Under the pieces are notes generated by a model. The model had not been told where the DNA came from and made no database searches. It saw only the letters and a list, made by a program, of their open reading frames with translations. A program made the translations under genes and the position numbers. From contig NZ_CP123961.1 of the NCBI RefSeq assembly GCF_036327415.1, positions 2,122,792 through 2,186,791 on the forward strand: 64,000 nt of DNA, read 5' to 3'. Origin of the DNA: Bartonella grahamii subsp. shimonis. Its GTDB lineage: Bacteria; Pseudomonadota; Alphaproteobacteria; Rhizobiales; Rhizobiaceae. Shown here piece by piece: positions 7,246-45,374 of the stretch (positions are counted from its first letter, which is position 1; every line of letters begins with the position of its first letter).

Positions 7246-7274
7246 TTGCCAATCTCCTGAAATTACTTTATCAC
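7246..7274 (+). promoter_or_regulatory. promoter of Brt-Trp cassette A
   Basis: TTGCCA (7246-7251), 17-bp spacer, TATCAC (7269-7274). The same hexamer positions and 17-bp spacing recur in all eight cassettes, with -10 variants TATCAC, TATGAG, TATTGA, TATTGG, TATGAA and TATACC. This supports a sigma-70 promoter with a start near 7281. Confidence 0.7.
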
Positions 7275-7280
7275 TTGAAG

Positions 7281-7495
7281 TGTAATTTTGATCGTCTACG
7301 CAGCGATCAATAGGGAAGACAAGCCCTAAGTCCGAGCGTAAAAACGAACCCGCTTTGCGGATATCCCGGGATTCCGGGAGATTTTGCTATGTCCAAGTGC
7401 GTTTCCGCACTAAAAGCAAAATGCTGACTCGGACTCAGTACTTGTTACTCCCGGAATACCAATGCGAGGGCGCTCGCAACCGGAGGGGGTGCAAA
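7281..7495 (+). ncRNA. Brt-type structured leader RNA, copy A
   Basis: Non-coding leader of about 215 nt immediately 5' of an XRE regulator gene, matching the Bartonella Brt RNA arrangement. Visible helices: a 5' hairpin TTGATCG/CGATCAA (7288-7310); inner long-range helix AGTCCGAG (7329-7336) with CTCGGACT (7428-7435); a weaker outer helix ACAAG/CTTGT; local hairpins CCGC-TTT-GCGG and AGTGCG/CGCACT; palindrome CCCGGGATTCCGGG followed by AGATTTTG; and GCGAG/CTCGC just before the Shine-Dalgarno GGAGGGGG. Positions of paired strands are conserved between copies while their sequence changes. Transcription start and 3' end are inferred. Confidence 0.8.
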
Positions 7496-7867
7496 GTGCC
7501 AACTAAAAATCCACATTTTATCGACTTTTCTATAGGCAAAAGAATCCGCCATAGACGCATTGCCATGGGGCTTTCCCAAAAAGAATTAGGAACCCATTTA
7601 GGCGTCAGTTTCCAACAAATCCAAAAATATGAAAAAGGTTTAAATCGTGTAAGCGCCAAATGTTTGCTGGAAATCGCCCAAAAACTGGAAGTCCCTATAA
7701 GCTTTTTTTATGCCGATATTACTACAAAAAAAGATCTTTCAACAAAAGAAACTCTCCTACACCACGATCAAGAAACATACAGCGAAAAAGAACACTCACT
7801 TTTAAAAAATTTTAGAGAACTCCAGCCGAAAAAACAAAAAGCAATTTTATGGTTGATCTCTGATTAG
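7496..7867 (+). CDS. XRE-family regulator (Trp type), copy A
   Basis: 123-aa DNA-binding protein, probably autoregulatory or acting with its leader RNA. The N-terminal HTH (about residues 12-66) contains IGKRIRHRRIAMGLSQKEL and SFQQIQKYEKG, the signature of the rhizobial PraR-like XRE group. The C-terminal half is short and charged, ending ELQPKKQKAILWLISD. I chose the GTG at 7496 rather than the upstream in-frame start at 7355. GGAGGGGG lies 6 nt upstream, conservation with the other copies starts here, and the upstream codons overlap the structured RNA. Nearly identical to copy D (HH for QH, LLK for LVK and few other changes). A regulator of surface adhesin expression has been described for this family in B. 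henselae; its target here is unknown. Confidence 0.85.
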   Translation: MPTKNPHFIDFSIGKRIRHRRIAMGLSQKELGTHLGVSFQQIQKYEKGLNRVSAKCLLEIAQKLEVPISFFYADITTKKDLSTKETLLHHDQETYSEKEHSLLKNFRELQPKKQKAILWLISD

Positions 7868-8394
7868 GAAAAAGCGCAACAACTCACATTATTTGCCAAT
7901 ATATCCACCCCCTATAAACTTCAGATCCCGCCCAAACGAGACTGTTTCATCAAAAGCGACAAATATGCCCTATTTTAAAATATTCTTGTCCCTTCACCAC
8001 CCTAAAGTAAGATCACTGAAAGCACCGGTCAATCCCACTTCAAAAACGAAACTTCCCTCCATCACTTCATAGCCCCCTTCCCCTCACACCTTCTTTCCTC
8101 TCTCGTCAACACACCACCCCTCTTCATCCCAACTTACCCTCCATTCACAAATGCATCCCCCTAGTTCTCTCACCACCATTTCACACCATAATAAAAGCCC
8201 AACAAGCCCCAAGGGTACGCACAACACATAAATCCCCCACGTCCTTGAACTTCCGCTCCACTTTTACAGATCCACATTTTTACGCTTTTACATCTTTATA
8301 GAACGCAGCCGAACGTAACCTCCAAACCAACCACCGGACAATCCCAAAATCCCCCAAAAGACAAAACTTCCACCCCGCACCGCTCTATAAACAA
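7868..8394. repeat. cassette A downstream segment plus C-rich block 2
   Basis: The first ~460 bp after the Trp A stop are almost identical to 28499-28930 after Trp D, including unique stretches such as 'gcccaaacgagactgtttca'. Cassettes A and D are therefore copies of one duplicated segment. The tail (8035-8394) is family-1 C-rich repeat with one 'ttttacagatccaca' core near 8262. No gene is seen. Confidence 0.75.
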
Positions 8395-8475
8395 TAGTCT
8401 GTCAATAATTTAAATAGCTGGCCTAGCCAGATTCCACCACTAACCACTCATGCAGTTCAGGTCACCACCCTTTAA
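8395..8475 (-). mobile_element. possible IS200/IS605-type 3' end relic
   Basis: On the minus strand the run 'gaactgcatgagtggttag' followed by 'tggtggaatctggct' resembles the 3' end of IS200/IS605 tnpB elements, where the omega-RNA scaffold lies. The short motif 'aactgcatga(a)gtggttag' is shared with the relic at 42382-42520. A CTGGC/GCCAG hairpin is present. No tnpA or tnpB reading frame remains. Weak evidence. Confidence 0.3.
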
Positions 8476-8556
8476 AGAACGGTGTTTTTACATCATGAAC
8501 AGAATAATTAACGAACCGTCTTAGAAAAAAGAAACAGCATGGAGATATCAAATATA

Positions 8557-9801
8557 TTAATGGTCGTCATCTACTGTCGTGTTAAGGGGTGTTAGCTCTT
8601 TATTTTTCTTACTTTTTATAACGCCAATCATACCAATAGAAATAATGAATGCAGACATCGCTAAAAAAGAGCTTAACAATCCCACGAGTGCAAAAAGTCC
8701 AGCAATAAAGCCAGACACTGCTTCCGCAGAGTTCGCTAAAGTTGAAAAAGTTCCAAAGCTCTTACCAAAATCTTCACGACGAGAATATAATTGAATAGCT
8801 GAGACTAAACTAATATCGACAAATGCACCAGTAAATCCTAAAATAAAAGCTAACACAAGAAGGAGTTTTAAATAAAGTTCTGCCGCTAAGGGTATAACAA
8901 ACAGAATAACCCCATAAAGAAACCAAAATACCATGAGTTTCAAAGATGTAACATTGAATATAATTTTACGATATAACAAACCACCAACAATAGTTCCAAC
9001 AGCCATGAGAGAAAAAATATAACTCACAAAGCTTTCCTCTCCCCCTATAGAGAGAACAAAAGCTGGAATTAAAAATCTTAAAATTGCCCCCGTAAAGAGA
9101 ATAGCAAATGATGAGCCAACGAGCGTAATAAATAAATGTTTATTTTCAGTAGAAATATATTGAAGATAGAAAGCCGTTTCTCGATAAATTTTGATAAAAT
9201 TGAATGATTTATTCTCACTTGTATTGAAATTCATGAGATTAAACAACAAGAGAATAGATATAAAATAGGTCAAAAAATCAAAAATGAGTACTGCCGATTT
9301 ATTGGCGAAAAAAAGCAGTAGAGAACATACCAAAGGACCCATGACGGATGCAGTTTCCTCTATAATTTGTGCAAGGCTATTTGCCTTTGTCAAATCCTTT
9401 TCTGAAAACATTCTGGGAATAGCAGCTTGAAAACTTGGTTGGAAAATACTTCTTCCTATAGTTGTACATATTGCTGCGAAAATAAGAACAATAATATGTG
9501 CAGTCCCTGTTATAGTGGTTATAAAAACGAATAATGAAGCGAATAATCTCACCAATTCACTGAAGATCATATTTTTCTTCAAAGAAAAATTATCCGCTAA
9601 CCAACCTCCTATAGGACCAAAAAAGAGAAAAGGGATAAATCGAAAAAAATACACAAGACCTATAAAAAAGGTGTTATCTGTTAATTCTAAGACCAGTAAA
9701 ACAAAAACAACTTCATAAGCATAATCACCAACTTTAGAAATAAAGAGAGAAGAAAAAAGAGTTAATGGACTCTTTTTAAAAACTAAATTCATATCACCCA
9801 T
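8557..9801 (-). CDS. MFS transporter (MFS_3 type)
   Basis: 414-aa integral membrane protein with about twelve hydrophobic segments. The first TM pair is followed by GPIGGWLADNFSLKKN, the classic MFS loop 2-3 motif (G-x-x-x-D-R/N). General layout and length fit the MFS_3 / EntS-like efflux group, so export of a small molecule across the inner membrane is likely. The substrate cannot be read from sequence. The ATG at 9801 and the ATG at 9792 (MNLVFKK) are both possible; GGGTGAT before the second makes it at least as good. The sequence is intact, not repeat-invaded, and clearly different from the second MFS gene at 12-13 kb. Confidence 0.85.
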   Translation of the reverse strand: MGDMNLVFKKSPLTLFSSLFISKVGDYAYEVVFVLLVLELTDNTFFIGLVYFFRFIPFLFFGPIGGWLADNFSLKKNMIFSELVRLFASLFVFITTITGTAHIIVLIFAAICTTIGRSIFQPSFQAAIPRMFSEKDLTKANSLAQIIEETASVMGPLVCSLLLFFANKSAVLIFDFLTYFISILLLFNLMNFNTSENKSFNFIKIYRETAFYLQYISTENKHLFITLVGSSFAILFTGAILRFLIPAFVLSIGGEESFVSYIFSLMAVGTIVGGLLYRKIIFNVTSLKLMVFWFLYGVILFVIPLAAELYLKLLLVLAFILGFTGAFVDISLVSAIQLYSRREDFGKSFGTFSTLANSAEAVSGFIAGLFALVGLLSSFLAMSAFIISIGMIGVIKSKKNKELTPLNTTVDDDH

Positions 9802-10372
9802 CCGATATTACACTTTTCTCCAGTTAAAGTTACACGCCTTTTAATACAATTGGTGATATGAACTTAAAAGGAACGCCCAATCAGTATTCAAAATATCCCC
9901 GCCTAATAAAGTATCCCATACCTGATATCGACCTAAAAGAGCAGTGTTTAGGGCATGATAGGATAAATTTATCATAGAACAGTGTCTTAACAAAAAAATC
10001 TTGAGATATTGTCTAGTATTGCGGACAATCAAATAACTGCCATTTAACAAAGAAGCCCTCAGATAAAGCAAAAAGCTTGAAATCCGAGGCTATTAAAACA
10101 TTGAATACCAACACAATGTCAAAAAGCATGGCTAAACTAAATTAAAAAACTTAAACAGCAAAGAAAATCAATTAAAAAACTTCAAAAATATAGGTCCTTT
10201 AAGAGAAAAATGCTATAAGGTTAAAAAAGCGAGACCAGTCATTTCCTATACCCCCAGCCATTTTCTACACCCCAGCCATTTTCTATACCCCAGCCATTTC
10301 CTACACCCCAGTCATTCCTATACCCCAGTCATTTCCTATATCAATGACAACATCACGATCTTAAATTACGTA
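9802..10372. repeat. intergenic repeat and short 18-19 bp tandem array
   Basis: 9880-9975 holds a copy of the dispersed intergenic repeat (landmarks 'aaaatatccccgcctaa', 'gatatcgacct', 'aaagagcagtgttta', 'catgataggataaa'). 10233-10341 is a tandem array of about six imperfect units such as 'ccccagccattttctata', period 18-19 bp. No gene is seen. Confidence 0.7.
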
Positions 10373-10771
10373 TTAGGAAAGGAGTCTTGCTGACTGCCCA
10401 TTTTTGGTTAACAAATCTATTGCTAATTTATCAAATGAAACAAAGGTTTTTCCGCCTAGCCAATGCCCCTCATAAAATATAATTCCATCAGCAAAATCTC
10501 CACCAGCCTCAAGCATAGCAAGTCCAGCTTCAACAGCTGGTCGATTCATGACGACATTACCCGTTTCCAGAAGATCGCGGACCATCAAAGCGACATCTTC
10601 TTTTGATAATTTCGCCCCACGGCAAAGTATCCAAACAAGTTCGCAAAGACAAGGCAAAGAAATAGCGATGAGAGAAGCTTCTCTCAAGATTTTACTTGCT
10701 ATTTCACCTTGCTTTTTATCATCTTGTAAAACAGCGCGGACTAGAACATTTGTATCTACAGAAATCTTCAT
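10373..10771 (-). CDS. PIN-domain ribonuclease toxin (VapC type)
   Basis: 132-aa PIN-fold protein expected to cleave RNA when not bound by its antitoxin. Candidate acidic active-site residues are in the usual places: D6 in SVDTNVLVRA, E44 in LCELVW, D95 in FADGIIF and D114 in SFDKLA. The start is the ATG at 10771, which overlaps the antitoxin stop as ATGA. This tight coupling is standard for toxin-antitoxin pairs. An in-frame upstream codon at 10786 would run into the antitoxin gene and is unlikely. All catalytic residues appear intact, so the toxin may be active. Confidence 0.88.
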   Translation of the reverse strand: MKISVDTNVLVRAVLQDDKKQGEIASKILREASLIAISLPCLCELVWILCRGAKLSKEDVALMVRDLLETGNVVMNRPAVEAGLAMLEAGGDFADGIIFYEGHWLGGKTFVSFDKLAIDLLTKNGQSARLLS

Positions 10772-11019
10772 TTTTCCCCCGCCCAACCAGAAGCAGCAAT
10801 TTCGTTCATTTCTTCAATGGTCAGTGTTTTTTTAACTTTTCCAGCAAATCGTCCAATAAAGCTATCAATTGTGCTTGTAGGCTGTGCTGCTTTTATACGA
10901 AGTTCACCACCTGGTAACTTGTCAAAACTGATCCGCTCACCTGGTTTAACACCAAGATGCTGGAGTAAATCCCGCTTCAGCGTCACTTGTCCTTTTGCTG
11001 TAACAGTTAATGAAGGCAT
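10768..11019 (-). CDS. AbrB/SpoVT-fold antitoxin (VapB type)
   Basis: 83-aa antitoxin. The N-terminal swapped-hairpin DNA-binding domain reads LTVTAKGQVTLKRDLLQHL, then GVKPGERISFDKLPGGELRI. This is the AbrB/MazE pattern (K-G-Q-V/I-T-[LI]-[PK]). The acidic C-terminal tail (about 55-83) is the likely toxin-binding part. It precedes the toxin with a 4-nt overlap, so the pair is co-transcribed and probably autorepressed by the complex. The upstream sequence near 11040-11065 is a run of AT dinucleotides that could hold promoter and operator. Confidence 0.88.
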   Translation of the reverse strand: MPSLTVTAKGQVTLKRDLLQHLGVKPGERISFDKLPGGELRIKAAQPTSTIDSFIGRFAGKVKKTLTIEEMNEIAASGWAGEK

Positions 11020-11204
11020 AGAAAAATCCTCTTCGTATAGATATCGCTATTGAATATATATATATAAAATAATGAAAAATTCAATTACTTTTTAAAAATT
11101 GCCAAAGAGCCATAGGCTGATCCTAAACGTGAGGAATTGTAAAATATATTCGTTTTCATACCGAAATATATACCTGATTATACCCGAAAAATACGAGAAC
11201 CTGA

Positions 11205-11410
11205 ATTCCTCCCTGCGTTAAACAACGGTATTTTATAGCATAAGAGAATGTATTAAATTGAAGAGGATCATGTTCCATTATCCACTAACACAAGTGCGAT
11301 CAATACGAAAAGCTTTAAAAGCAGCAAAGAAACTCTCATCCATCGTCAAAATATCCCCGCCTAAAGTTTCCCATATCTGATATCGCCCCCAAAAAACAAT
11401 GTTTTTAAAG
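11205..11410. repeat. dispersed intergenic repeat copy
   Basis: Copy of the intergenic repeat also seen near 760-1040 and 9880-9975: 'gttccattatccactaaca', then 'catcgtcaaaatatccccgc', then 'gatatcgcccccaaaaaaca'. The rest of 11020-11204 is AT-rich without a gene. Confidence 0.6.
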
Positions 11411-11976
11411 GCTTACCAAACCAGCCCGCCCCTAAGATATTCCCCACACACTCTCCTCCAGTCACACACCACCACCTCTTCATCCCAACTTACCCCCCAT
11501 TCACAAATGCGCCCCCCCTACTTCTCTCACCACATTCCACGCCATGCCAAAAGCCCAACAAGCCCCAAGGGTACGCACAACACATAAATCCCCCACGTCC
11601 TTGAATTTCCCCTTACCTTTTACAGATCCACATTTTTACGCTTTTACATCTTTACAGAACGCAGCCAACGTAACCTCCAAACCAACCACTGAACAATCCC
11701 TTATCTTAAAAAATCCCCTAAAAGACAAAACTTCCACCCCACACCACTCTATAAACAATACCCCAACTTCTTACCCAACCAATATCTCCACCGTCAAATC
11801 CCCTCTCAAAGGACCGTACTTCAAAAGGTGCTATAAACCAGTCCGCCCCTAAGATATTCAACACACGACGCGCACAAAAAATACCCTAGATGTGTAAATC
11901 TATTGCCCAATATCAACCTCAAAGAGCAGTGTTACAGCATGGATAGGATAAAACACTTGTTTCATTGAAGAGCCAA
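11411..11976. repeat. C-rich repeat block 3 (family 1) with intergenic repeat
   Basis: Family-1 modules, with one 'ttttacagatccaca' core near 11616. At 11877-11955 lies a segment running 'taccctagatgtgtaaatc' to 'aaagagcagtgttacagca', repeated nearly exactly at 17364-17440. No gene. Confidence 0.7.
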
Positions 11977-13185: not shown

Positions 13186-13812
13186 CAACCCCCCCCTTCT
13201 TTTTCCTTAGCAATACTGATTAGACGATCAATTCTTGCCAGCACCCTAAAGGCATCAACAATTCTCATGGAACAAAGCACCAACAAGCGATTTTTACAAG
13301 CGATTTCTTATTGCCCCGTCTATTTGCATCAACCCCCCCTTCTTTTTCCTTAGCAATACTGATTAGACTATCAATTCTTGCCAGCACCTTAAAGGCATCA
13401 ACAACCTTCATGCAACAAAGCACCAACAAGCGATTTTTTATTGCCCTGTCTATTTGCACCAACCCCCCCTTCTTTTTCCGTAGCAATACTGATTAGACTA
13501 TCAATTCTTGCCAGCACCCTAAAGACATCAACAACCTTCATGCAACAATGCACCAACAAGCGATTTCTTATTGCCCTGTCTATTTGCACCAACCCCCCCT
13601 TCTTTTTCCGTAGCAATACTGATTAGACGATCAATTCTTGCCAGCACCCTAAAGGCATCAACAACCTTCATGCAACAAAGCACCAACAAGCGATTTTTTA
13701 TTGCCCCGTCTATTTGCACCACCCCTTCTTTTTCCGTAGCAATATGATTAGACGATCAATTCTTGCCAGCACCCTAAAGGCATCAACAATCCTCATGGAA
13801 CAAAGCAATTTA
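13150..13812. repeat. ~130-bp tandem repeat of the MFS gene 5' end, about 5 units
   Basis: Units begin near 13155, 13302, 13431, 13560 and 13690. Each carries the complement of the first ~14 codons (MQIDGAIKNRLLVL or close variants) and the G-rich ribosome site. Each then has a spacer coding on the minus strand CCMKVVDAFRVLARIDRLIS. Unit 1 has an extra 13 bp ('atttttacaagcg' duplicated). In each upstream unit translation from the start codon ends within ~75 codons, so these are decoy starts. Confidence 0.88.
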
Positions 13813-17522: not shown

Positions 17523-17742
17523 CTGTAAGTTTGGTCGTATACGCAGCGATCAATAGGGAACTAAAAGCCCGAAGACTTGACACATAAATTTATCCCACTT
17601 TTGTGGGTATCCCGGAATTCCGGGAGATTTTGCTATGTCCAGGTGCTCTCTAGCACTAAAAGCAAAAAGCTGAGTCAAGTCAGTACTTTTAGACTCCCGG
17701 AATACCAATGCGAGGGCGCTCGCAACCGGAGGGGAGTTTGAA
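17523..17742 (+). ncRNA. Brt-type structured leader RNA, copy B
   Basis: The clearest example of the fold. 5' hairpin TTGGTCG/CGATCAA. Outer barcode CTAAAAG (17561-17567) with CTTTTAG (17686-17692). Inner barcode GACTTGAC (17574-17581) with GTCAAGTC (17674-17681). Enclosed are hairpin CCCAC-TTTT-GTGGG, palindrome CCCGGAATTCCGGG (17611-17624) followed by AGATTTT, and GTGCT/AGCAC flanked by ttttgct/agcaaaa. After the barcode, CTCCCGGAATACC (17694-17706) can pair with the 3' part of the palindrome. GCGAG/CTCGC (17710-17723) precedes GGAGGGG. RNA ends are inferred. Confidence 0.85.
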
Positions 17743-18129
17743 GTGCCAACCAAAAATCCACATTTTATCGACATTTCTATAGGCAAAAGAATCCGCCATA
17801 GACGCATTGCCATGGGGCTTTCCCAAAAAGAATTAGGAACCCATTTAGGCGTCAGTTTTCAACAAATCCAAAAATATGAAAAAGGCTTAAATCGTGTAAG
17901 CGCCAAATGTTTGCTGGAAATCGCCCAAAAACTGGAAGTTCCTCTTACCTTTTTCTACACGGATCTTTTAACAGCAGACATTACTACAAAAGAAGATCTT
18001 TCAACAAAAGAAATTCTCTTACAGCACGATCAAGAAACATACAGCGAAAAAGAACACTCACTTGTGAAAAATTTTAGAGAACTCCAGCCGAAAAAACAAA
18101 AAGCAATTTTATGGTTGATCTCTGATTAG
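17743..18129 (+). CDS. XRE-family regulator (Trp type), copy B
   Basis: 128 aa, GTG start with GGAGGGG 8 nt upstream. The HTH is identical to copies A and D. Copies B and C differ in the middle: EVPLTFFYTDLLTADITTKE replaces EVPISFFYADITTKK, five residues longer. Protein B is identical to protein C although their leader RNAs have different barcodes. Same role as argued for copy A. Confidence 0.85.
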   Translation: MPTKNPHFIDISIGKRIRHRRIAMGLSQKELGTHLGVSFQQIQKYEKGLNRVSAKCLLEIAQKLEVPLTFFYTDLLTADITTKEDLSTKEILLQHDQETYSEKEHSLVKNFRELQPKKQKAILWLISD

Positions 18130-25433: not shown

Positions 25434-25651
25434 TGTGACTTTGATCGTCTACGCAACGGTCAAATAGGGAGTTGAAGACCCGAAACCTAAACATAAATTT
25501 ATCCCGCTTTGCGGGTATCCCGGGATTCCGGGAGTTTTTGCTATGTCCAAGTGCGTTTTCGCACTAAAAGCAAAAAGCTGATTTAGGTTCAGTATTTTCA
25601 ACCTCCCGGAATACCAATGCGAGGGCGCTCGCAACCGGAGGGGAGTTTGAA
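25434..25651 (+). ncRNA. Brt-type structured leader RNA, copy C
   Basis: Same architecture as copy B. 5' hairpin TTGATCG with CGGTCAA (one G-U). Outer barcode GTTGAA (25481-25486) with TTCAAC (25597-25602). Inner barcode AACCTAAA (25494-25501) with TTTAGGTT (25582-25589). Local hairpin CCCGC-TTT-GCGGG; palindrome CCCGGGATTCCGGG followed by AGTTTTTG; GTGCG/CGCAC; GCGAG/CTCGC. The barcode strands share no sequence with copies A, B or D but pair perfectly. Confidence 0.85.
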
Positions 25652-26038
25652 GTGCCAACCAAAAATCCACATTTTATCGACATTTCTATAGGCAAAAGAA
25701 TCCGCCATAGACGCATTGCCATGGGGCTTTCCCAAAAAGAATTAGGAACCCATTTAGGCGTCAGTTTCCAACAAATCCAAAAATATGAAAAAGGCTTAAA
25801 TCGTGTAAGCGCCAAATGTTTGCTGGAAATCGCCCAAAAACTGGAAGTTCCTCTTACCTTTTTCTACACGGATCTTTTAACAGCAGACATTACTACAAAA
25901 GAAGATCTTTCAACAAAAGAAATTCTCTTACAGCACGATCAAGAAACATACAGCGAAAAAGAACACTCACTTGTGAAAAATTTTAGAGAACTCCAGCCGA
26001 AAAAACAAAAAGCAATTTTATGGTTGATCTCTGATTAG
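25652..26038 (+). CDS. XRE-family regulator (Trp type), copy C
   Basis: 128 aa, GTG start, GGAGGGG upstream. The protein sequence is identical to copy B over its whole length, so B and C encode the same regulator under different leader RNAs. Confidence 0.85.
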   Translation: MPTKNPHFIDISIGKRIRHRRIAMGLSQKELGTHLGVSFQQIQKYEKGLNRVSAKCLLEIAQKLEVPLTFFYTDLLTADITTKEDLSTKEILLQHDQETYSEKEHSLVKNFRELQPKKQKAILWLISD

Positions 26039-27911: not shown

Positions 27912-28126
27912 AGATATTTTGGTCGTATACGCAACGACCAAGAGGGAAAACAAGCCCTAAACCCTAGCGTACAATTGAGCCCACTTTTGTGGGTTTCCCG
28001 GAATTCCGGGAGATTTTGCTATGTCCAGGTGCCACCAGCACTAAAAGCAAAAAGCTGACTAGGGTTCAGTACTTGTTACTCCCGGAATACCAATGCGAGG
28101 GCGCTCGCAACCGGAGGGGGTGCAAA
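27912..28126 (+). ncRNA. Brt-type structured leader RNA, copy D
   Basis: 5' hairpin TTGGTCG/CGACCAA: both strands differ from copy A (TTGATCG/CGATCAA), a double compensatory change. Outer barcode AACAAG/CTTGTT. Inner barcode AACCCTAG (27960-27967) with CTAGGGTT (28059-28066). Hairpin CCCAC-TTTT-GTGGG, palindrome CCCGGAATTCCGGG then AGATTTTG, GTGC/GCAC, GCGAG/CTCGC. Confidence 0.85.
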
Positions 28127-28498
28127 GTGCCAACCAAAAATCCACATTTTATCGACATTTCTATAGGCAAAAGAATCCGCCATAGACGCATTGCCATGGG
28201 GCTTTCCCAAAAAGAATTAGGAACCCATTTAGGCGTCAGTTTCCAACAAATCCAAAAATATGAAAAAGGTTTAAATCGTGTAAGCGCCAAATGTTTGCTG
28301 GAAATCGCCCAAAAACTGGAAGTCCCTATAAGCTTTTTTTATGCCGATATTACTACAAAAAAAGATCTTTCAACAAAAGAAACTCTCTTACAGCACGATC
28401 AAGAAACATACAGCGAAAAAGAACACTCACTTGTGAAAAATTTTAGAGAACTCCAGCCGAAAAAACAAAAAGCAATTTTATGGTTGATCTCTGATTAG
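28127..28498 (+). CDS. XRE-family regulator (Trp type), copy D
   Basis: 123 aa, GTG start six nt after GGAGGGGG. It differs from copy A by only a few residues (for example IDIS for IDFS, LLQHDQ for LLHHDQ, LVKNF for LLKNF). Its downstream 450 bp are almost identical to those of copy A. Confidence 0.85.
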   Translation: MPTKNPHFIDISIGKRIRHRRIAMGLSQKELGTHLGVSFQQIQKYEKGLNRVSAKCLLEIAQKLEVPISFFYADITTKKDLSTKETLLQHDQETYSEKEHSLVKNFRELQPKKQKAILWLISD

Positions 28499-36255: not shown

Positions 36256-36259
36256 TCCT

Positions 36260-38510: not shown

Positions 38511-38514
38511 TATT

Positions 38515-38688
38515 AAGGAGGGTGTTCTGCGCTTCTCGACAGGAAATAACGTATTCCTGAGACCTTAGTGATCTCCAAGGGAGCTGTCCCTGATCAAGCC
38601 CGTGGGCTTTTTCATATGGCGCCCACCTATTTGTATAGGTTCCCGGGATCAGCTTTTTCCATCGGCTGTTGTGGATCACCCTTTTTAC
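38515..38688 (+). ncRNA. ssrS: 6S RNA (candidate)
   Basis: About 170-nt structured region directly upstream of the 5-FCL locus, the usual neighbour of 6S RNA in many proteobacteria. The ends close with AGGGTG (38519-38524) and CACCCT (38677-38682), followed by T5. Inside are further complementary arms and a G/C-rich apical part ('caagcccgtgggctt'). The hyphenated long-hairpin shape fits a 6S RNA, which mimics an open promoter and binds sigma-70 RNA polymerase. The call rests on synteny and the closing stem, not on a covariance search. Confidence 0.65.
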
Positions 38689-38830: not shown

Positions 38831-39366
38831 ATGACGATGGGTTTTATTTTACAAAACAGACAGCACTTACAAAAAAATCCTCTCTGTGAAGCTGCTTTAT
38901 CCCTTCGCACGACAAACAGCGCAAAAGCGGTTTATCACGTCGTGATGCTCTTTTAATAGAAGAGCGCGCACTTTTTTCGCAGCGTGCTTGTTGCCATTTT
39001 ATGGAGTACCTTGAAAAAAAGGGAACAGATTTTTCACGCCTCATTTTAGCAGGCTATTGGCCCATTAGATCGGAAATTGACCCGCGTCCTTTACTGGATG
39101 CTGTAGCGTTACACGGTGGGCGTTTAGCCTTACCAGCAGTGCTTGATTCCACTACCATGATTTTCCGTGCATTTTCGTCCAACACGATTTTAGAGCCGAT
39201 GCGCTTTGGCACCTTTGGTCCAGGTGCAGACAATAGCGTTGTTGTTCCCAATAATATTATTGTCCCGCTTTCTGCTTTTGATCGTCAATGCCACCATCTT
39301 GGCTATGGAGGAGAGGATATTATGACCGTGCGGTTGAAGCCCTTGAAAAACAAGGACATCAAATAA
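38831..39366 (+). pseudogene. broken upstream copy of 5-FCL
   Basis: Matches the intact gene at 40760-41250. It carries the same +2 frameshift as the repeats near the 5' end ('cgcacgacaaacagcgc') and a 2-bp insertion in the catalytic GYGGGYYDR region ('ggaggagaggatat' for 'ggaggaggatat'). It is cut off at 'gacatcaaataaca', where the first 199-bp repeat starts. It cannot make active enzyme. Confidence 0.9.
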
Positions 39367-39368
39367 CA

Positions 39369-40759
39369 CAAAATCCTCTCTGTGAAGCTGCTTTATCCCT
39401 TCGCACAACAAACAGCGCAAAAGCGGTTTATCACGTCGTGATGCTCTTTTAATAGAAGAGCGCGCACTTTTTTCACGCGCACAGCGCTTATCCATAAAGC
39501 GATTTACAAAACGCCAATAATGAATAAAATGCCAGCATCTTATAAAACAATTGACGAAATAATGACACAAAATCCTCTGTGAAGCTGCTTTATCCCTTCG
39601 CACGACAAACAGCGCAAAAGCGGTTTATCACGTCGTGATGCTCTTTTAATAGAAGAGCGCGCACTTTTTTCACGCGCACAGCGCTTATCCATAAAGCGAT
39701 TTACAAAACGCCAATAATGAATAAAATGCCAGCATCTTATAAAACAATTGACGAAATAATGACACAAAATCCTCTCTGTGAAGCTGCTTTATCCCTTCGC
39801 ACGACAAACAGCGCAAAAGCGGTTTATCACGTCGTGATGCTCTTTTAATAGAAGAGCGCGCACTTTTTTCACGCGCACAGCGCTTATCCATAAAGCGATT
39901 TACAAAACGCCAATAATGAATAAAATGCCAGTATCTTATAAAACAATTGACGAAATAATGACACAAAATCCTCTCTGTGAAGCTGCTTTATCCCTTCGCA
40001 CGACAAACAGCGCAAAAGCGGTTTATCACGTCGTGATGCTCTTTTAATAGAAGAGCGCGCACTTTTTTCACGCGCACAGCGCTTATCCATAAAGCGATTT
40101 ACAAAACGCCAATAATGAATAAAATGCCAGTATCTTATAAAACAATTGACGAAATAATGACACAAAATCCTCTCTGTGAAGCTGCTTTATCCCTTCGCAC
40201 GACAAACAGCGCAAAAGCAGTTTATCACGTCGTGATGCTCTTTTAATAGAAGAGCGCGCACTTTTTTCACGCGCACAGCTCTTATCCATAAAGCGATTTA
40301 CAAAACGCCAATAATGAATAAAATGCCAGCATCTTATAAAACAATTGACGAAATAATGACACAAAATCCTCTCTGTGAAGCTGCTTTATCCCTTCGCACG
40401 ACAAACAGCGCAAAAGCAGTTTATCACGTCGTGATGCTCTTTTAATAGAAGAGCGCGCACTTTTTTCACGCGCACAGCGCTTATCCATAAAGCGATTTAC
40501 AAAACGCCAATAATGAATAAAATGCCAGTATCTTATAAAACAATTGACGAAATAATGACACAAAATCCTCTCTGTGAAGCTGCTTTATCCCTTCGCACGA
40601 CAAACAGCGCAAAAGCAGTTTATCACGTCGTGATGCTCTTTTAATAGAAGAGCGCGCACTTTTTTCACGCGCACAGCGCTTATCCATAAAGCGATTTACA
40701 AAACGCCAATAATGAATAAAATGCCAGTATCTTATAAAACAATTGACGAAATAATAACA
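39369..40759. repeat. 199-bp tandem repeat of the 5-FCL 5' end, 7 units
   Basis: Units start at 39369 (197 bp, 2-bp deletion at its end), 39566, 39765, 39964, 40163, 40362 and 40561. The eighth occurrence at 40760 is the functional gene. Each unit holds the start region (MNKMPxSYKTIDEIMTQNPL) and ~50 codons with a +2 shift, so translation stops early. It then has 'cacgcgcacagcgcttatcc' before the next start. Units differ by only a few bases. Repeated 93-codon minus-strand frames are a by-product. Confidence 0.95.
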
Positions 40760-41359
40760 CAAAATCCTCTCTGTGAAGCTGCTTTATCCCTTCGCACACA
40801 GCAGCGCAAAAGCGGTTTATCACGTCGTGATGCTCTTTTAATAGAAGAGCGCGCACTTTTTTCGCAGCGTGCTTGTTGCCATTTTATGGAGTACCTTGAA
40901 AAAAAGGGAACAGATTTTTCACGCCTCATTTTAGCAGGCTATTGGCCCATTAGATCGGAAATTGACCCGCGTCCTTTACTGGATGCTGTAGCGTTACACG
41001 GTGGGCGTTTAGCCTTACCAGCAGTGCTTGATTCCACTACCATGATTTTCCGTGCATTTTCGTCCAACACGATTTTAGAGCCGATGCGCTTTGGCACCTT
41101 TGGTCCAGGTGCAGACAATAGCGTTGTTGTTCCCAATAATATTATTGTCCCGCTTTCTGCTTTTGATCGTCAATGCCACCGTCTTGGCTATGGAGGAGGA
41201 TATTATGACCGTGCGGTTGAAGCCCTTGAAAAACAAGGACATCAAATAACATTATGGGGCATGGGCTTTTCATGTCAGGAGGTTTCCTCTATTCCCGCAG
41301 CAGAACATGATCTACAGGTACAGGGCATTTTTACAGAAAAAGGTTTCTTAAAATGTTAA
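40712..41359 (+). CDS. 5-formyltetrahydrofolate cyclo-ligase
   Basis: 215-aa enzyme (5-FCL, YgfA/FthC family) that converts 5-formyl-THF to 5,10-methenyl-THF with ATP. Seen: LRTQQRKSGLSRRDAL (the R/K-rich N-terminal motif), AGYWPIRSEIDPRPLLDAL-type segment, PMRFGTFGPGAD, VVPNNIIVPLSAFDRQCHRLGYGGGYYDR (ATP/phosphate-binding signature) and GMGFSCQEV. Start ATG at 40712 or 40721; both lie in the last repeat unit and neither has a strong ribosome site. This is the only copy with an intact frame. A YmdB-type gene follows after 18 bp. Confidence 0.93.
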   Translation: MNKMPVSYKTIDEIITQNPLCEAALSLRTQQRKSGLSRRDALLIEERALFSQRACCHFMEYLEKKGTDFSRLILAGYWPIRSEIDPRPLLDAVALHGGRLALPAVLDSTTMIFRAFSSNTILEPMRFGTFGPGADNSVVVPNNIIVPLSAFDRQCHRLGYGGGYYDRAVEALEKQGHQITLWGMGFSCQEVSSIPAAEHDLQVQGIFTEKGFLKC

Positions 41360-41377
41360 AATGTGATTAAAGCACCT

Positions 41378-42199
41378 ATGCGTTTTTTATTTTTAGGTGA
41401 CATTGTTGGTAACACAGGCTGTAAAGCCGTTTTTGAACATCTACCTCAACTGATTGAGCAATGGCGACTTGATTTTGTTGTGGTGAATGGTGAAAATGCT
41501 TCCAGTGGTTTTGGTCTCACACAAGAGACGTATCAAGATCTTTTGATGATCGGTATTGATGTTGTTACCTCGGGCAATCATGCTTTTTCTCACAAAGAAG
41601 CATTGCAGTATGCCCATGAGAATGATCGTTTTTTACGCCCTGCCAATTTTTCGAAAGAAACTCCTGGAAGAGGTGCTTGTGTTTTTACAGCCAAAAATGG
41701 AGCCCGTGTTCTTGTCGCCAATGTGTTGGGCTCCATTTTTATGCCGTGCAAAGTAGAAGATCCATTTGCAACAGCGGAAAATATTCTGCTCGCCTGTTCA
41801 TTGATAGAACAAGCCGATGCGATTATTTTTGACTTTCACGCAGAAACGACAAGCGAGAAGCAATGTTTTGGCCATTTTCTTGATGGCCGTGTGAGTGTTA
41901 TCGTTGGCACACATACGCATATTCCCACGGCTGACGCGCAAATCTTAGAAGGTGGGAGCGCCTATTTAACGGATGCAGGCATGTGTGGAGATTACAACTC
42001 ATCTCTTGGAATGGATAAAGAAGAACCCTTACACCGTTTTCTTTATAAAACGAGGCAAAATCGTTTTGAACCAGCATGTGGTCCCGCCACCCTTTGTGGT
42101 TTAGCGGTTGAGATTTCAGATCGAACAGGTTTAGCAGAAAAGGTCTCGGCAGTACGAATTGGTCCTCATTTAAAGCCTGAAGTTCCAGATTTTTGGTAG
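41378..42199 (+). CDS. YmdB-family metallophosphoesterase
   Basis: 273 aa. A calcineurin-like phosphoesterase of the YmdB/TIGR00282 family, whose characterised members hydrolyse 2',3'-cyclic nucleotides. Motifs with metal ligands: FLGDIVGNTG at the N-terminus, VVNGENASSGFG, TSGNHAFSHKE, DFHAETTSEK and GTHTHIPTADAQIL, plus DAGMCGDYNSSLGM. The start ATG at 41378 matches family N-termini; the upstream GTG at 41363 is not needed. Directly downstream of 5-FCL, the conserved order in Rhizobiales. Confidence 0.94.
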   Translation: MRFLFLGDIVGNTGCKAVFEHLPQLIEQWRLDFVVVNGENASSGFGLTQETYQDLLMIGIDVVTSGNHAFSHKEALQYAHENDRFLRPANFSKETPGRGACVFTAKNGARVLVANVLGSIFMPCKVEDPFATAENILLACSLIEQADAIIFDFHAETTSEKQCFGHFLDGRVSVIVGTHTHIPTADAQILEGGSAYLTDAGMCGDYNSSLGMDKEEPLHRFLYKTRQNRFEPACGPATLCGLAVEISDRTGLAEKVSAVRIGPHLKPEVPDFW

Positions 42200-42381
42200 C
42201 TTTTTTCAGCCGTCCCTTTGATGATCACTCTCCACTGTGCGCCCCTTTGGATGATTGTTCTCCAATGTTTCCTTTTGAGAATTCTTTTTGGCAAGATAAT
42301 TTTTCAAGCCCTTCCCAAAATTTTTCTCCCCTAAAACGCCACACCCCTGAATTTGCCTAATACACAACTTTTCTAGTACAA
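42200..42381. other. short intergenic region
   Basis: No gene; sequence leading to the right end of the IS relic. Confidence 0.5.
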
Positions 42382-42520
42382 TTGACCTCCTCCCCACATC
42401 TCAAAGGATGGAGATTCCTACCGGTCACCGACCTATCAACAGTCCAGCCTCTCGCGGCAGGTTCCTCCTGCTAACCACTTCATGCAGTTCACTTCATAGG
42501 TGCGACAAACAAGCCCGGCC
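42382..42520 (-). mobile_element. IS200/IS605-type right-end relic with omega-RNA-like scaffold
   Basis: On the minus strand: 'gaactgcatgaagtggttag', a hairpin 'caggagga / acctgccgcgagagg', then 'ggtaggaatctccatccttt' and 'gatgtggggaggaggtcaa'. This is the typical 3' terminus of IS605/IS1341 elements, where tnpB ends and the omega-RNA scaffold and right end overlap. The predicted cleavage end is near 42382 and the adjacent 'ttgtactagaaaagttg' would be the guide position. No tnpA or tnpB frame remains upstream (42521-42820). Confidence 0.55.
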
Positions 42521-42540
42521 CTGAATACTGATCACGATAT

Positions 42541-42824
42541 CTAAAAAACACTCAATATGTAAAGATTTTCATGCCTTATATCACCGCTCGAAACAACGGT
42601 GTTTTACGGCATAACATAATAGGATAAGTCACTCTTTAAAAAAGAGGTTAAGTCACTCTTAAAAAAAAGGGTAAAGAGTAAAATCTTTCATGATTTTTAA
42701 AATGAAGAGAAGGAGGCCCCATTGGGACATTTCTGCGGGGGGGGGGAAATGTTAACCCCCTTCTCTAAAAAAGGGTTTATATAATAATTTATTATTTAGC
42801 AAGAGATTCTTTTATTTTTTTACT
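42541..42824. repeat. dispersed intergenic repeat copy and spacer
   Basis: 42541-42627 carries the intergenic core ('caatatgtaaagattttcat', then 'gaaacaacggtgttttacgg', 'ataggataagt'). A 'aagtcactctttaaaaaa' duplication and a G9 run (42737-42746) follow. No gene. Confidence 0.55.
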
Positions 42825-43193
42825 CTAATGAGAAATTAACCATAAGACTGCTTTCTGCTTTTTAGATTTGAGCTCTCTAAAACTTTTCAAAAGCAAATAT
42901 TCTTGTTCGCTATAGGTGCATTGATCATGATGTGAGTGATTTTCTTTTACGGAAATATCGGCTGTTAAAAAATCCGCATAAAAAAAGCTCATAGGAACTT
43001 GCAATTTTTTAGCAATTTCCAGTAAACACCCGGCACCAATACGATTGGAACCTTTTTCATATTTTTGGATTTGTTGGAAACTAACGCCTAAAAATCTCCC
43101 CAATTCTTTTTGAGAAAGCCCCATGGCAATGCGTCTATGACGAATTTTTCGACCGATCGAAATATCGTTAAAGTGTGGATTTTTAGCTTTCAC
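42825..43193 (-). CDS. XRE-family regulator (Trp type), copy E
   Basis: 122 aa, GTG start at 43193 after 'caggggagcttgaa'. HTH: IGRKIRHRRIAMGLSQKELG, then RFLGVSFQQIQKYEKGSNRI. This is a second subtype (GAGCLLEIAKKLQVP), shared with copy F. The C-terminus, ELKSKKQKAVLWLISH, is close to the plus-strand group. It is the last gene of the four-cassette minus-strand array. Confidence 0.85.
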   Translation of the reverse strand: MKAKNPHFNDISIGRKIRHRRIAMGLSQKELGRFLGVSFQQIQKYEKGSNRIGAGCLLEIAKKLQVPMSFFYADFLTADISVKENHSHHDQCTYSEQEYLLLKSFRELKSKKQKAVLWLISH

Positions 43194-43411
43194 TTCAAGC
43201 TCCCCTGCCGGTTGCGAGCGCCCTCGCATAAGTATTCCGGGAGTCAAAAACACTGAGTTCAGTCAGCTTTTTTGCTTTTAGTGCTAGAGCGCACCTGGAC
43301 ATGGCAAAAACTCCCGGAATTCCGGGATACCCACAAGAGTAGGTCATTTTTACGCTCGGATTTTAGGGCTTTCAGACCCTACTGATCGCTGCGTAGACGA
43401 CCAAAGTCACA
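43194..43411 (-). ncRNA. Brt-type structured leader RNA, copy E (barcode mispaired)
   Basis: The backbone is present: the CGATC-type 5' hairpin, CCTAC/GTGGG, palindrome CCCGGAATTCCGGG, GTGC/GCAC and GCGAG/CTCGC. The barcode strands do not match. The 5' strand AATCCGAG (complement at 43355-43362) faces GACTGAACTC instead of CTCGGATT. The outer strand CTGAAAG faces GTTTTTGA, the outer 3' strand of copy G. The copy looks like a recombinant of two others and may not fold like them. Confidence 0.75.
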
Positions 43412-43417
43412 ATGTTA

Positions 43418-43446
43418 TTCATAAAGCAATTTCAGGAAATTGGCAA
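43418..43446 (-). promoter_or_regulatory. promoter of Brt-Trp cassette E
   Basis: Minus strand: TTGCCA (43446-43441), 17-bp spacer, TATGAA (43423-43418). Confidence 0.7.
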
Positions 43447-43472
43447 TAAAATTTAAAACAGTCTTTTTTATC

Positions 43473-43844
43473 TCATGAGACAATCAAACACAAAATAGCT
43501 TTCCTTTTCTTAGGTTTGAGCTCTCTAAAACTTTTCAAAAGAATGTGCTCTTCTTGGCTTGAGATCCTTTCATCGCAGGAGCACAAGACATTTTCTTTTA
43601 CGGAAATATCGGCTGTTAAAAAATCCGCATAAAAAAAGCTCATAGGAACTTGCAATTTTTTAGCAATTTCCAGTAAACACCCGGCACCAATACGATTGGC
43701 GCCTTTTTCATATTTTTGGATTTGTTGGAAACTAACGCCTAAAAATCTCCCCAATTCTTTTTGAGAAAGCCCCATGGCAATGCGTCTATGACGAATTTTT
43801 CGACCAATCGAAATATCGTTAAAGTGTAGATTTTTAGCTTTCAC
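43473..43844 (-). CDS. XRE-family regulator (Trp type), copy F
   Basis: 123 aa from the GTG at 43844. HTH as in copy E (one change, KGANRIG for KGSNRIG). The C-terminus switches to the type found in G and H (EEHILLKSFRELKPKKRKAI, then LCLIVS), so F is a mosaic between subtypes. Confidence 0.85.
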   Translation of the reverse strand: MKAKNLHFNDISIGRKIRHRRIAMGLSQKELGRFLGVSFQQIQKYEKGANRIGAGCLLEIAKKLQVPMSFFYADFLTADISVKENVLCSCDERISSQEEHILLKSFRELKPKKRKAILCLIVS

Positions 43845-44064
43845 TTCAAGCTCCCCTGCCGGTTGCGAGCGCCCTCGCATAAGTATTCCGGGAGCCTGAA
43901 AGCACTGACCTCGAATCAGCTTTTTGCTTTTAGTGCTAGAGCGCACCTGGACATAGCAAAAACTCCCGGAATTCCGGGACACCCACAAAAGTAGGTTAAT
44001 TTTATGTATCGAGGTTTCGGGCTTTCAGTTCCCTATTGATCGTCGCGTATACGACCAAACTCAC
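43845..44064 (-). ncRNA. Brt-type structured leader RNA, copy F
   Basis: Inner barcode ACCTCGA/TCGAGGT (plus-strand positions 44009-44015 and 43908-43914). Outer barcode CTGAAAG/CTTTCAG (44022-44028 and 43896-43902). Other helices are as in copy B; palindrome CCCGGAATTCCGGG followed by AGTTTTTG. The barcode differs from all other copies and pairs perfectly. Confidence 0.85.
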
Positions 44065-44070
44065 CTTTAA

Positions 44071-44099
44071 GGTATAAAGCAATTTCAGGAGATTTACAA
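44071..44099 (-). promoter_or_regulatory. promoter of Brt-Trp cassette F
   Basis: Minus strand: TTGTAA (44099-44094), 17-bp spacer, TATACC (44076-44071). Confidence 0.7.
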
Positions 44100-44125
44100 T
44101 AAAAATTAAAACAGTGTTTTTTATC

Positions 44126-44482
44126 TCATGAGACAATCAAACACAAAATAGCTTTCCTTTTCTTAGGTTTGAGCTCTCTAAAACTTTTCAAAAGGATGTG
44201 CTCTTCTTTACTTACGATCCCTTCATCACAAGGATCCAAGGCGTTTTCTTTTGTTGAGAGATCCGCATAAAAAAAGGAAATGGGAACATTGAGAATATCA
44301 GCAATTTCTTGTAAACGCCCCGCTCCTATACGATTAGAGCCTTTTTCATATTTTTGGATTTGTTGAAAAGTCACACCTAACTGGCTGCCTAATTGCTTTT
44401 GCGACATTCCGATCATTGTTCTTTTAAAGCGAATTTTTCGACCGATCGAAATATCGTTAAAGTGTAGATTTTTAGCTTTCAC
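44126..44482 (-). CDS. XRE-family regulator (Trp type), copy G
   Basis: 118 aa from the GTG at 44482. The HTH is the third subtype: IGRKIRFKRTMIGMSQKQLG, then SQLGVTFQQIQKYEKGSNRI, GAGRLQEIADILNVP. The recognition region differs from E and F in the first helices but keeps QQIQKYEKG. The protein is almost identical to copy H (LHFNDIS versus PHFNDIS). Confidence 0.85.
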   Translation of the reverse strand: MKAKNLHFNDISIGRKIRFKRTMIGMSQKQLGSQLGVTFQQIQKYEKGSNRIGAGRLQEIADILNVPISFFYADLSTKENALDPCDEGIVSKEEHILLKSFRELKPKKRKAILCLIVS

Positions 44483-44703
44483 TTCAAGCTCCCCTGCCGG
44501 TTGCGAGCGCCCTCGCATTGGTATTCCGGGAGTCAAAAACACTGAATCCGAGTCAGCTTTTTTGCTTTTAGTGCTAGAGCGCACCTGGACATAGCAAAAA
44601 CTCCCGGAATTCCGGGACACCCACAAAAGTAGGTTCATTTTTACGCTCGGATTTTAGGGGTTTTTGAATCCCTCTTGGTCGCTGCGTATACGACCAAACT
44701 CAC
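44483..44703 (-). ncRNA. Brt-type structured leader RNA, copy G
   Basis: 5' hairpin TTGGTCG/CGACCAA. Inner barcode AATCCGAG/CTCGGATT (44646-44653 and 44545-44552). Outer barcode TCAAAAAC/GTTTTTGA (44660-44667 and 44533-44540). Backbone helices as in the other copies. Confidence 0.85.
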
Positions 44704-44709
44704 CTTTAA

Positions 44710-44738
44710 GGTATAAAGCAATTTCAGGAGATTTACAA
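44710..44738 (-). promoter_or_regulatory. promoter of Brt-Trp cassette G
   Basis: Minus strand: TTGTAA (44738-44733), 17-bp spacer, TATACC (44715-44710). Confidence 0.7.
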
Positions 44739-44764
44739 TAAAAATTAAAACAGTGTTTTTTATC

Positions 44765-45121
44765 TCATGAGACAATCAAACACAAAATAGCTTTCCTTTT
44801 CTTAGGTTTGAGCTCTCTAAAACTTTTCAAAAGAATGTGCTCTTCTTTACTTACGATCCCTTCATCACAAGGATCCAAGGCGTTTTCTTTTGTTGAGAGA
44901 TCAGCGTAAAAAAAGGAAATGGGAACATTGAGAATATCAGCAATTTCTTGTAAACGCCCCGCTCCTATACGATTAGAGCCTTTTTCATATTTTTGGATTT
45001 GTTGAAAAGTCACACCTAACTGGCTGCCTAATTGCTTTTGCGACATTCCGATCATTGTTCTTTTAAAGCGAATTTTTCGACCGATCGAAATATCGTTAAA
45101 GTGTGGATTTTTAGCTTTCAC
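44765..45121 (-). CDS. XRE-family regulator (Trp type), copy H
   Basis: 118 aa from the GTG at 45121, preceded by 'caggggagcttgaa'. A longer frame back to 45349 would read through the whole leader RNA and is rejected. Near-identical to copy G, so again the same regulator has a different leader barcode. Confidence 0.85.
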   Translation of the reverse strand: MKAKNPHFNDISIGRKIRFKRTMIGMSQKQLGSQLGVTFQQIQKYEKGSNRIGAGRLQEIADILNVPISFFYADLSTKENALDPCDEGIVSKEEHILLKSFRELKPKKRKAILCLIVS

Positions 45122-45339
45122 TTCAAGCTCCCCTGCCAGTTGCGAGCGCCCTCGCATTGGTATTCCGGGAGTTGAAAGAGCTGAAACTTGACTCAGCCTT
45201 TTGCTTTTAGTGCTAAAGAGCACCTGGACATAACAAAAGCTCCCGGAAATCCGGGATATCCATAAAGCTGGATAAATACGTGTCTCAAGTTTCGGGTCTT
45301 TCATTCCCTGTTGATCGCTGCGTAGACGACCAAAACATT
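45122..45339 (-). ncRNA. Brt-type structured leader RNA, copy H
   Basis: Inner barcode AAACTTGA/TCAAGTTT (45285-45292 and 45184-45191). Outer barcode TGAAAG/CTTTCA (45298-45303 and 45173-45178). The local hairpin has changed to ATCCA/TGGAT, keeping the pairing where other copies have CCCAC/GTGGG or CCCGC/GCGGG. Confidence 0.85.
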
Positions 45340-45345
45340 CTCTTA

Positions 45346-45374
45346 CCAATAAAGCAATTTCAGGAAATTGGCAA
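45346..45374 (-). promoter_or_regulatory. promoter of Brt-Trp cassette H
   Basis: Minus strand: TTGCCA (45374-45369), 17-bp spacer, TATTGG (45351-45346). Confidence 0.7.

Follow-up and report, generated by a model that had tools for sequence, protein, structure and literature searches.

The final 64 kb of the 2,186,791-base, single-contig genome of Bartonella grahamii subsp. shimonis (contig NZ_CP123961.1; this whole stretch of 64,000 nucleotides is called the window here) raise the question of why RNA leaders built on one plan should differ from copy to copy in the sequence of their long-range helices. Eight units in the window, four on the plus strand (A-D) and four on the minus strand (E-H), consist of a leader of the Brt RNA family followed by trp, a small gene for an XRE-type regulator. 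The 3' hairpin of leader A ends at 7477 and its trp gene starts at 7496, and all eight units, as read from the sequence, are alike in this layout. According to Tu et al. (2016; PMC5387305), Brt RNAs are leaders of about 194-203 nucleotides (nt) that end 10-18 nt before a small XRE gene, occur in clustered copies with a conserved 3' end and are specific to the genus; copies are 74-100% identical, and single-sequence folds were reported.

The window copies are members of this known family. What appears to be new is a two-part code of covarying loops and strands on a leader for which two folds are predicted. The published description, in the portions available, includes no copy-specific covarying helices, U-turn loops or pair of mutually exclusive folds; the main text of Tu et al. 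has no occurrence of 'covari' or 'kissing', and we found covarying codes described neither in the available text of that paper and of the 2021 review (PMC8070961) nor in literature searches. A preliminary description of the window had noticed base-paired helices that change from copy to copy, and at the level of sequence comparison this observation is confirmed and much enlarged here.

A two-part code in the Brt leaders

From 5' to 3', each leader consists of the H1 hairpin, a GGG-loop-CCC hairpin, a single-stranded 8-mer, a local hairpin and a hairpin of the TCCCGGAATTCCGGGA type, followed by the TTTTGC stem, a CTGA-loop-TCAG hairpin, a short single strand, CTCCCGGAAT and the GCGAG hairpin, with the trp start about 18-20 nt further on. 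The outer code has its 5' strand in the GGG/CCC loop and its 3' strand in the stretch behind the CTGA/TCAG loop, and the inner code combines the 8-mer with the CTGA/TCAG loop itself.

Pairing in the window was scored as the longest contiguous helix, with G-U pairs allowed, and an inner helix was counted from at least 7 base pairs (bp). Seven of the eight leaders form such a helix with their own 3' strand, compared with 5 of the 56 non-cognate combinations. All seven inner and all four outer strand pairs quoted in the preliminary description lie at the expected places, but it had counted eight leaders, and the inner helix of E is broken because its 5' strand AATCCGAG faces the 3' loop CTGAACT; E keeps an open trp (122 codons) despite this. 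Nor is the outer code unique to each copy, as had been supposed, A and D having the 3' strand TACTTGTTA in common. Since five non-cognate combinations reach 7 bp, G-U pairs included (A with G, E with G, B with C, B with H and H with C, the 5' strand coming from the leader named first), the inner codes alone do not separate the copies fully.

The conserved 3' core of the leader has 23 matches in the same genome and is found, at no more than 3 mismatches, in 43 of 71 genomes of the genus; among the matches listed (80 of at least 120 stretches), all are from Bartonella. We collected 404 core copies from 42 Bartonella genomes, which are most, not all, of the listed places. The leader could be parsed in 353 copies (335 distinct), and the 51 unparsed ones (47 lacking the 5' half and 4 the 3' half), several of which have an open trp, are excluded from the pairing counts. 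An inner helix of at least 7 bp occurs at the expected place in 253 of the 335 distinct leaders (259 if it may lie anywhere), compared with 17% of 3350 swapped combinations, and 216 of these 253 also have an outer helix of at least 7 bp, compared with 27% of 2530 swaps. Non-cognate strands from the same genome reach 7 bp in 254 of 1566 inner combinations, which is near the 17% swap level, although the two figures use a different 5' stretch and are not strictly comparable. The criterion permits G-U pairs and therefore scores at least one chimeric leader of the same genome (2119381, with three G-U pairs) as paired.

We aligned 124 distinct leaders from 33 genomes with MAFFT, all with an open trp and chosen regardless of pairing; the filter was a 5' segment of 57-61 nt, a 3' segment of 23-26 nt and no more than four leaders per genome, except for the genome of the window. 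The preliminary description held that the fold is kept while the identity of the helices changes, and named a genus-wide covariation test as the check. Its proposal stood up to a column-based shuffle and slide test: 92.0% of the cells in the named structure are paired (74.6% when shuffled), 408 cells are changed on both sides (146.5 when shuffled) and the covariation score is 0.599 (0.271 when shuffled), with none of 500 shuffles as high on these three measures. When slid by 1-3 columns, the structure has 24-57% paired cells, a comparison that favours the original position, as the structure was derived from one aligned sequence, leader D. A weaker measure, pairs with change on both sides (12 of 14), was equalled by 20 of the 500 shuffles. 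Most other helices of the leader vary little in this alignment. The near-invariance ascribed to the flanks does not extend to the genus, where mean column identity is 80%.

Two further ideas were abandoned. A Watson-Crick purity of the codes, suggested by a first count of 1.7% G-U pairs as compared with 11-19% in two local hairpins, disappeared on fixed columns (4.3-4.4% in the codes, 0.2-6.9% in other helices). An invertible segment between the codes was rejected, as the inter-code part has the same orientation in all aligned leaders.

Loops, predicted folds and the trp gene

The loops that carry the code follow a rule of their own. Of 215 intact paired leaders, 194 have an inner 3' loop that starts with the motif YUNR, as do 32 of the 40 inner types; the extension YUNRR is found in 32 of the 40 types and in 5.9% of letter shuffles, and the two purines (RR) are present in all 347 leaders counted. 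Among outer-loop types, 41 of 50 contain YUNR, as compared with 21% when shuffled. Judged by this motif, the Brt leaders resemble U-turn antisense RNAs, and such a rule is not required by a pure cis helix. In known antisense systems, YUNR U-turns promote fast pairing, as stated in the available text of PMC6562991.

The leader appears able to adopt two folds. In the predicted state II, the 3' domain would close on itself, ATTCCGGGAG pairing with CTCCCGGAAT; the inner 3' strand would be displayed as a loop of 6-8 nt on the conserved CTGA/TCAG stem, usually with a U-turn motif, and the outer 5' strand would be held in the loop of the GGG/CCC hairpin. In state I, both displayed elements would pair with partners about 100-130 nt away, the outer helix would capture the CTCCC strand and the 3' domain would open. 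An RNAalifold consensus of the 124 leaders, computed with no constraint on the code, takes the form of state II, with a closed 3' domain and both loops displayed, and a compensatory change from A-U to G-C is present at columns 103-181 in 5 of the 124 leaders.

Single-sequence folds divide according to pairing. The 253 paired leaders are predicted to be code-paired in 233 cases, closed in 19 and otherwise folded in 1; the 60 unpaired leaders have a closed 3' domain in 51 cases, are code-paired in 3 and differ from both in 6; for the 22 weakly paired leaders the numbers are 17 code-paired, 2 closed and 3 other. Leader E is predicted to take the closed form. When either the inner or the closing helix was imposed on the first 90 distinct intact paired leaders, 4 of which were dropped for want of a motif, the code-paired ensemble was 5.5 kcal/mol lower on average, and lower in 72 of 86 leaders.

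Loss of pairing mostly accompanies loss of the gene. We call a trp open if it has at least 95 codons. Of 326 leaders that were clearly paired or unpaired and had sufficient downstream sequence, 267 are paired, 215 of them with an open trp, and 59 are unpaired, 19 of them with an open trp (Fisher odds ratio 8.7, P 1.7e-12); the odds ratio is also 8.7 after stratifying by genome; of 21 weakly paired leaders, 16 have an open trp and 5 do not. The far higher frequency of open trp among paired leaders indicates that pairing is kept mainly where the gene is kept. A three-way covariation, with the outer 3' strand also matching the ribosome-binding site of trp, found no excess (at least 7 bp in 25% of cognate and 29% of swapped combinations). 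Sequence comparison and folding together establish how the leader is built, that its code strands covary, that pairing tends to disappear with trp and that the loops follow a rule, and they predict bistability.

Code repertoire and genomic setting

The 253 paired leaders contain 40 inner types, 45 outer types and 128 combinations of the two. One inner strand, AATCCGAG, was found in 24 genomes; the codes are a genus-wide repertoire and not private to copies. Inner and outer types are partly linked, with an excess mutual information of 0.18 of the smaller entropy.

Within genomes, leaders that are not neighbours have the same code less often than leaders of different genomes. In 716 such same-genome pairs, sharing is 0.72 (inner), 0.64 (outer) and 0.63 (both) of the between-genome rate, as compared with 1.2-9.2 for seven control segments. 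When each same-genome pair was matched to between-genome pairs of equal flank divergence, the full code was shared in 7 pairs, with 33.5 expected, and the ratios were 0.46 for the inner part, 0.41 for the outer and 0.21 for both (bootstrap 0.36-0.57, 0.28-0.58 and 0.10-0.32); eight single control segments gave 0.59-13.3 and two combined ones 0.72-0.93.

Coordinates of the leaders and trp genes are collected in the table. The sharing of promoter geometry that had been described holds for a conserved upstream block, but when the two stretches with leaders A and E-H were scanned for the sigma-70 consensus, no promoter was detected ahead of any of these leaders. Directly behind a -10-like block lie short palindromes, at 7272-7282 in A (CACTTGAAGTG) and in leader F (ACCTTAAAGGT), that differ between copies; these could be operators for the Trp protein, as candidates read from sequence. 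The mid hairpin with its T run scores as resembling an intrinsic terminator in all five leaders scanned (A and E-H), and published Brt RNAs extend beyond this hairpin.

Table. Positions of the eight Brt leaders, their code elements and the trp genes in the window
Feature	Position	Strand	Details
Leader A	7289..7477	+	H1 hairpin 7289-7310; outer 5' loop 7316-7323; inner 5' strand 7329-7336 AGTCCGAG; mid hairpin 7364-7380
Leader A, 3' part		+	inner 3' loop 7428-7435 CTCGGACT; outer 3' strand 7439-7447; closing strand 7448-7457; 3' hairpin 7464-7477
trp A, XRE/HTH regulator	7496..7867	+	123 aa, GTG start; 434 Cro/CI relatives
Leader B	17532..17723	+	outer 5' loop 17559-17567; inner 5' GACTTGAC 17574-17581; mid 17610-17626; inner 3' loop 17674-17680; outer 3' 17684-17693
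trp B	17743..18129	+	128 aa
Leader C	25442..25632	+	outer 5' loop 25470-25478; inner 5' AACCTAAA 25484-25491; mid 25518-25534; inner 3' loop 25582-25589; outer 3' 25593-25602
trp C	25652..26038	+	128 aa
Leader D	27920..28108	+	outer 5' loop 27947-27954; inner 5' AACCCTAG 27960-27967; mid 27996-28012; inner 3' loop 28059-28066; outer 3' 28070-28078 (identical to A)
trp D	28127..28498	+	123 aa
Leader E	43214..43403	-	H1 43403 to 3' hairpin 43214; inner 5' AATCCGAG; inner 3' loop 43262-43256 CTGAACT
Leader E, outer code		-	5' loop 43376-43369 TCTGAAAG; 3' strand 43252-43244 TGTTTTTGA; poor match by eye, 7-bp run if G-U allowed
trp E	42825..43193	-	122 aa, open
Leader F	43865..44057	-	outer 5' loop 44030-44022; inner 5' ACCTCGA 44015-44009; mid 43979-43963; inner 3' loop 43915-43908; outer 3' 43904-43895
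trp F	43473..43844	-	123 aa
Leader G	44503..44696	-	outer 5' loop 44669-44661; inner 5' AATCCGAG 44653-44646; mid 44617-44601; inner 3' loop 44552-44545; outer 3' 44541-44533
trp G	44126..44482	-	118 aa; HTH_3 (scanned as longer frame 44126-44638)
Leader H	45142..45332	-	outer 5' loop 45305-45297; inner 5' AAACTTGA 45292-45285; mid 45256-45240; inner 3' loop 45192-45184; outer 3' 45180-45172
trp H	44765..45121	-	118 aa

Recombinant leaders are E in the window and those at 2117224 and 2119002 elsewhere in the same genome, where positions 2117221-2119410 hold a tandem array of recombinant leaders with differing codes in their two halves, several with a broken trp. An additional Brt-like copy lies on the minus strand of this genome near 1,754.5 kb; it was detected through the 5' hairpin and loop motif and is missed by the search for the 3' core. 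The window also holds other repeats: an 85-nt repeat in 21 dispersed copies among the plus-strand Brt-trp units (6314-30870); seven tandem copies at a spacing of about 199 nt (39378-40869) between a 6S RNA match (38521-38681) and a 5-FTHF cyclo-ligase gene at 40712, whose frame is overlapped by the last copy; and direct repeats with a 54-nt period (59448-61259, 29 overlapping copies) within an open frame of 1147 aa (58961-62404).

Readings of the code

We propose that each Brt leader is a two-state RNA joined to trp. The two helices would form a two-part code needed on both strands of one leader, code pairing would decide the state of the leader and hence the output of trp, and the diversity of codes would make each leader close on itself and not on abundant, similar sister transcripts. 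Units on plasmids would be expected to bear codes other than the commonest chromosomal ones. This is the best explanation of the observations and we hold it to be probable, if by no great measure; within it, insulation of sister RNAs is the likeliest role of the codes, though an unproven one. The preliminary description had already suggested that the helices prevent cross-pairing between sisters, which agrees with the low matched sharing within genomes, but the codes are not private and unmatched sharing is random. Taking all sharing tests together, selection for differing codes is likely, not proven. Published work fits a setting of this kind: in the available text, Brt is strongly and trp poorly transcribed in B. 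henselae (PMC5387305), Brt1 is an abundant RNA whose 3' region keeps trp1 expression low by attenuation, and the control is placed at transcription (PMC5387305, PMC8070961); a heme effect and a suggested heme riboswitch, from a reporter result, are cited in the 2021 review (PMC8070961).

A number of results weigh against this reading. The Shine-Dalgarno sequence is nearly equally accessible in the two enforced states (0.32 vs 0.24); its accessibility does not track the state, so that the folds leave unexplained how a switch would act on trp, and a switch by Shine-Dalgarno exposure, not being predicted by the enforced folds, was rejected. An open trp is retained by 19 of the 59 unpaired leaders, window copy E included. 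Over all 783 same-genome pairs, without removal of duplicates, sharing is about random (41 vs 49.9 expected for the inner code, 27 vs 27.1 for the outer, 7 vs 7.0 for both); a de-duplicated permutation gave lower same-code counts, and eight control segments were shared 1.5 to 10 times above random. The 67 neighbouring pairs (less than 2.5 kb apart) share the inner code in 8 cases, the outer in 11 and both in 3, which is 1.9, 4.7 and 5.1 fold the between-genome rate; seven control segments, at 5.5-94 fold, lie above the codes, with H1 (5.5) close. Distances computed from the core only weaken the matched ratios to 0.59, 0.61 and 0.37 (eight single controls 0.87-22.7), the control adjoining the inner 5' strand stands at 0.59 in the main matched version, and control bootstraps (hp 0.52-1.20, H1+link 0.38-1.12) overlap the ranges of the single codes. 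In the 47 same-genome pairs whose 27-nt spacers are identical, the inner code is shared in 12 and the outer in 11, much as two other segments of the leader are (16 and 10). Moreover, gene conversion of the flanks, kept off the codes by the need for pairing, can bias the matched test, and selection against one-sided gene conversion could be the source of part of its signal.

Some of these points give weight to a neutral history, in which the helices are needed only in cis, any match works, and codes that carry no information drift by compensatory change and recombination while one-strand conversion is purged and flanks homogenise. The random sharing over all pairs agrees with it, neighbour sharing above random is what plain duplication predicts, recombinant leaders occur (E; 2117224, 2119002, 2119381), broken leaders are without enriched trans partners, and related leaders of different genomes with different inner codes are mostly 2-3 letters apart (69% of 110 pairs), as in stepwise change. 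It does not lead one to expect that identical code types recur across species, that a loop rule unnecessary for pairing alone is followed, that non-neighbouring leaders of one genome share codes below the between-genome rate with seven controls above it, or that both code parts score low in the matched test, and we regard such a history as rather unlikely.

A trans-acting role, in which the code is an antisense or incompatibility tag and a Brt RNA uses its 5' half to bind the 3' half of other transcripts that carry its code, much as c4-type or plasmid antisense RNAs determine immunity or incompatibility groups, would account for the U-turn loops and for an antisense-like 5' half followed by a target-like 3' half in a single transcript. 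The occurrence of a coded Brt-trp unit on six Bartonella plasmids (pTT0105, pBHa, pBGR3, pOE11-1 and pTLV-1, one place each, and pVbh_WD121 of strain WD12.1) also speaks for it. The outer helix has 6-9 bp in all six and the inner helix 8 bp in five, that of pBHa (6 bp) being below the criterion. Four of the five annotated plasmid records have a ParA-family gene on one side of the unit, separated from it by a single small gene, and on the other side a gene of about 222 codons, which is beta-solenoid-like by Pfam in all three scanned; the unit is possibly a part of plasmid maintenance. The other 40 of the 45 matching plasmid records are from Pseudosulfitobacter, and in those of them that were listed (the listing covered 20 of the 45 records) the match is limited to the HTH-coding part. 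No plasmid inner code is among the ten commonest on chromosomes, a set that accounts for 147 of 214 leaders. Four host genomes, of which three were assigned to their plasmids from contig positions, yielded 49 parsed chromosomal units, and not one of these has both code parts in common with the plasmid. Partial relatedness among the plasmids makes this contrast suggestive only, and two of the four hosts do have a chromosomal unit with the inner strand of the plasmid. An unpublished pull-down of Brt1 with Trp7 mRNA is mentioned in the available text of PMC8070961. On the other hand, both strands are on the same RNA, so that closure in cis should win, and the searches for partners were negative. 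No stand-alone 5' half was found in the genome of the window, 21 of 22 matches preceding a 3' core and one being the further Brt-like copy. Broken leaders have a possible rescuing partner in trans in 9 of 19 cases (12.1 expected), with no excess. The separate trans target that had been suggested for each RNA was not found among 17 matches to the commonest loop form in this genome, which comprise 15 Brt cores, the further Brt-like copy and one place elsewhere, about chance by a rough estimate. At the gathering threshold, Rfam matches nothing in the window besides tRNA and 6S, and leader A has no match at E up to 5. We therefore think a trans-acting code improbable.

Least probable by far is that the inverted code strands are DNA half-sites for the cognate Trp protein and not RNA helices. 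Trp does resemble the DNA-binding proteins 434 Cro and CI. Its QQ[IV]QKYE stretch, which we take to be the recognition helix, is conserved in 205 of 215 Trps though the codes differ, and codes are linked weakly to Trp type under a crude three-residue label (an excess of 0.10-0.14 of label entropy), which places the diversity more in the RNA than in the presumed DNA-reading part; moreover, the code strands are about 100 bp apart and the stems of the loops are conserved as RNA.

Among known systems, the c4 antisense RNA of phages P1 and P7 also combines an antisense-like and a target-like part in one transcript ahead of a regulated gene, matched strands setting its specificity. The Brt leaders have this arrangement and, unlike c4, long-range helices in cis; leader A matches nothing in Rfam at E up to 5, and a collection of phage records contained no match to unit A. 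With the antisense RNAs of plasmids and type I toxin-antitoxin systems they have in common recognition loops with 5' YUNR, but those are two separate RNAs, whereas the Brt strands lie on one RNA whose product is a DNA-binding protein (PMC6562991, in the available text). In engineered attenuators derived from pT181, independence is likewise obtained through changed pairing sequences (PMC3753616, in the available text), and the Brt set would differ in being natural and in having dozens of codes. The wider view to which this leads, of Brt leaders as a natural combinatorial set of mutually insulated attenuators, in which the two loop-strand codes of each RNA are in part independent, come from a repertoire common to the genus and are kept different within a cell, and in which plasmid units resemble incompatibility or recognition tags, is tentative, and we put it forward with some doubt.

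It is rarely possible to see how a cell keeps its near-identical sister RNAs from mispairing. With dozens of code pairs that occur naturally on a single scaffold, the question becomes directly testable in a laboratory strain. The code pairs could also contribute to an explanation of the roughly thirty Brt copies in some Bartonella genomes and, if the codes set specificity, the Brt family would be a natural parts list of orthogonal RNA switches.

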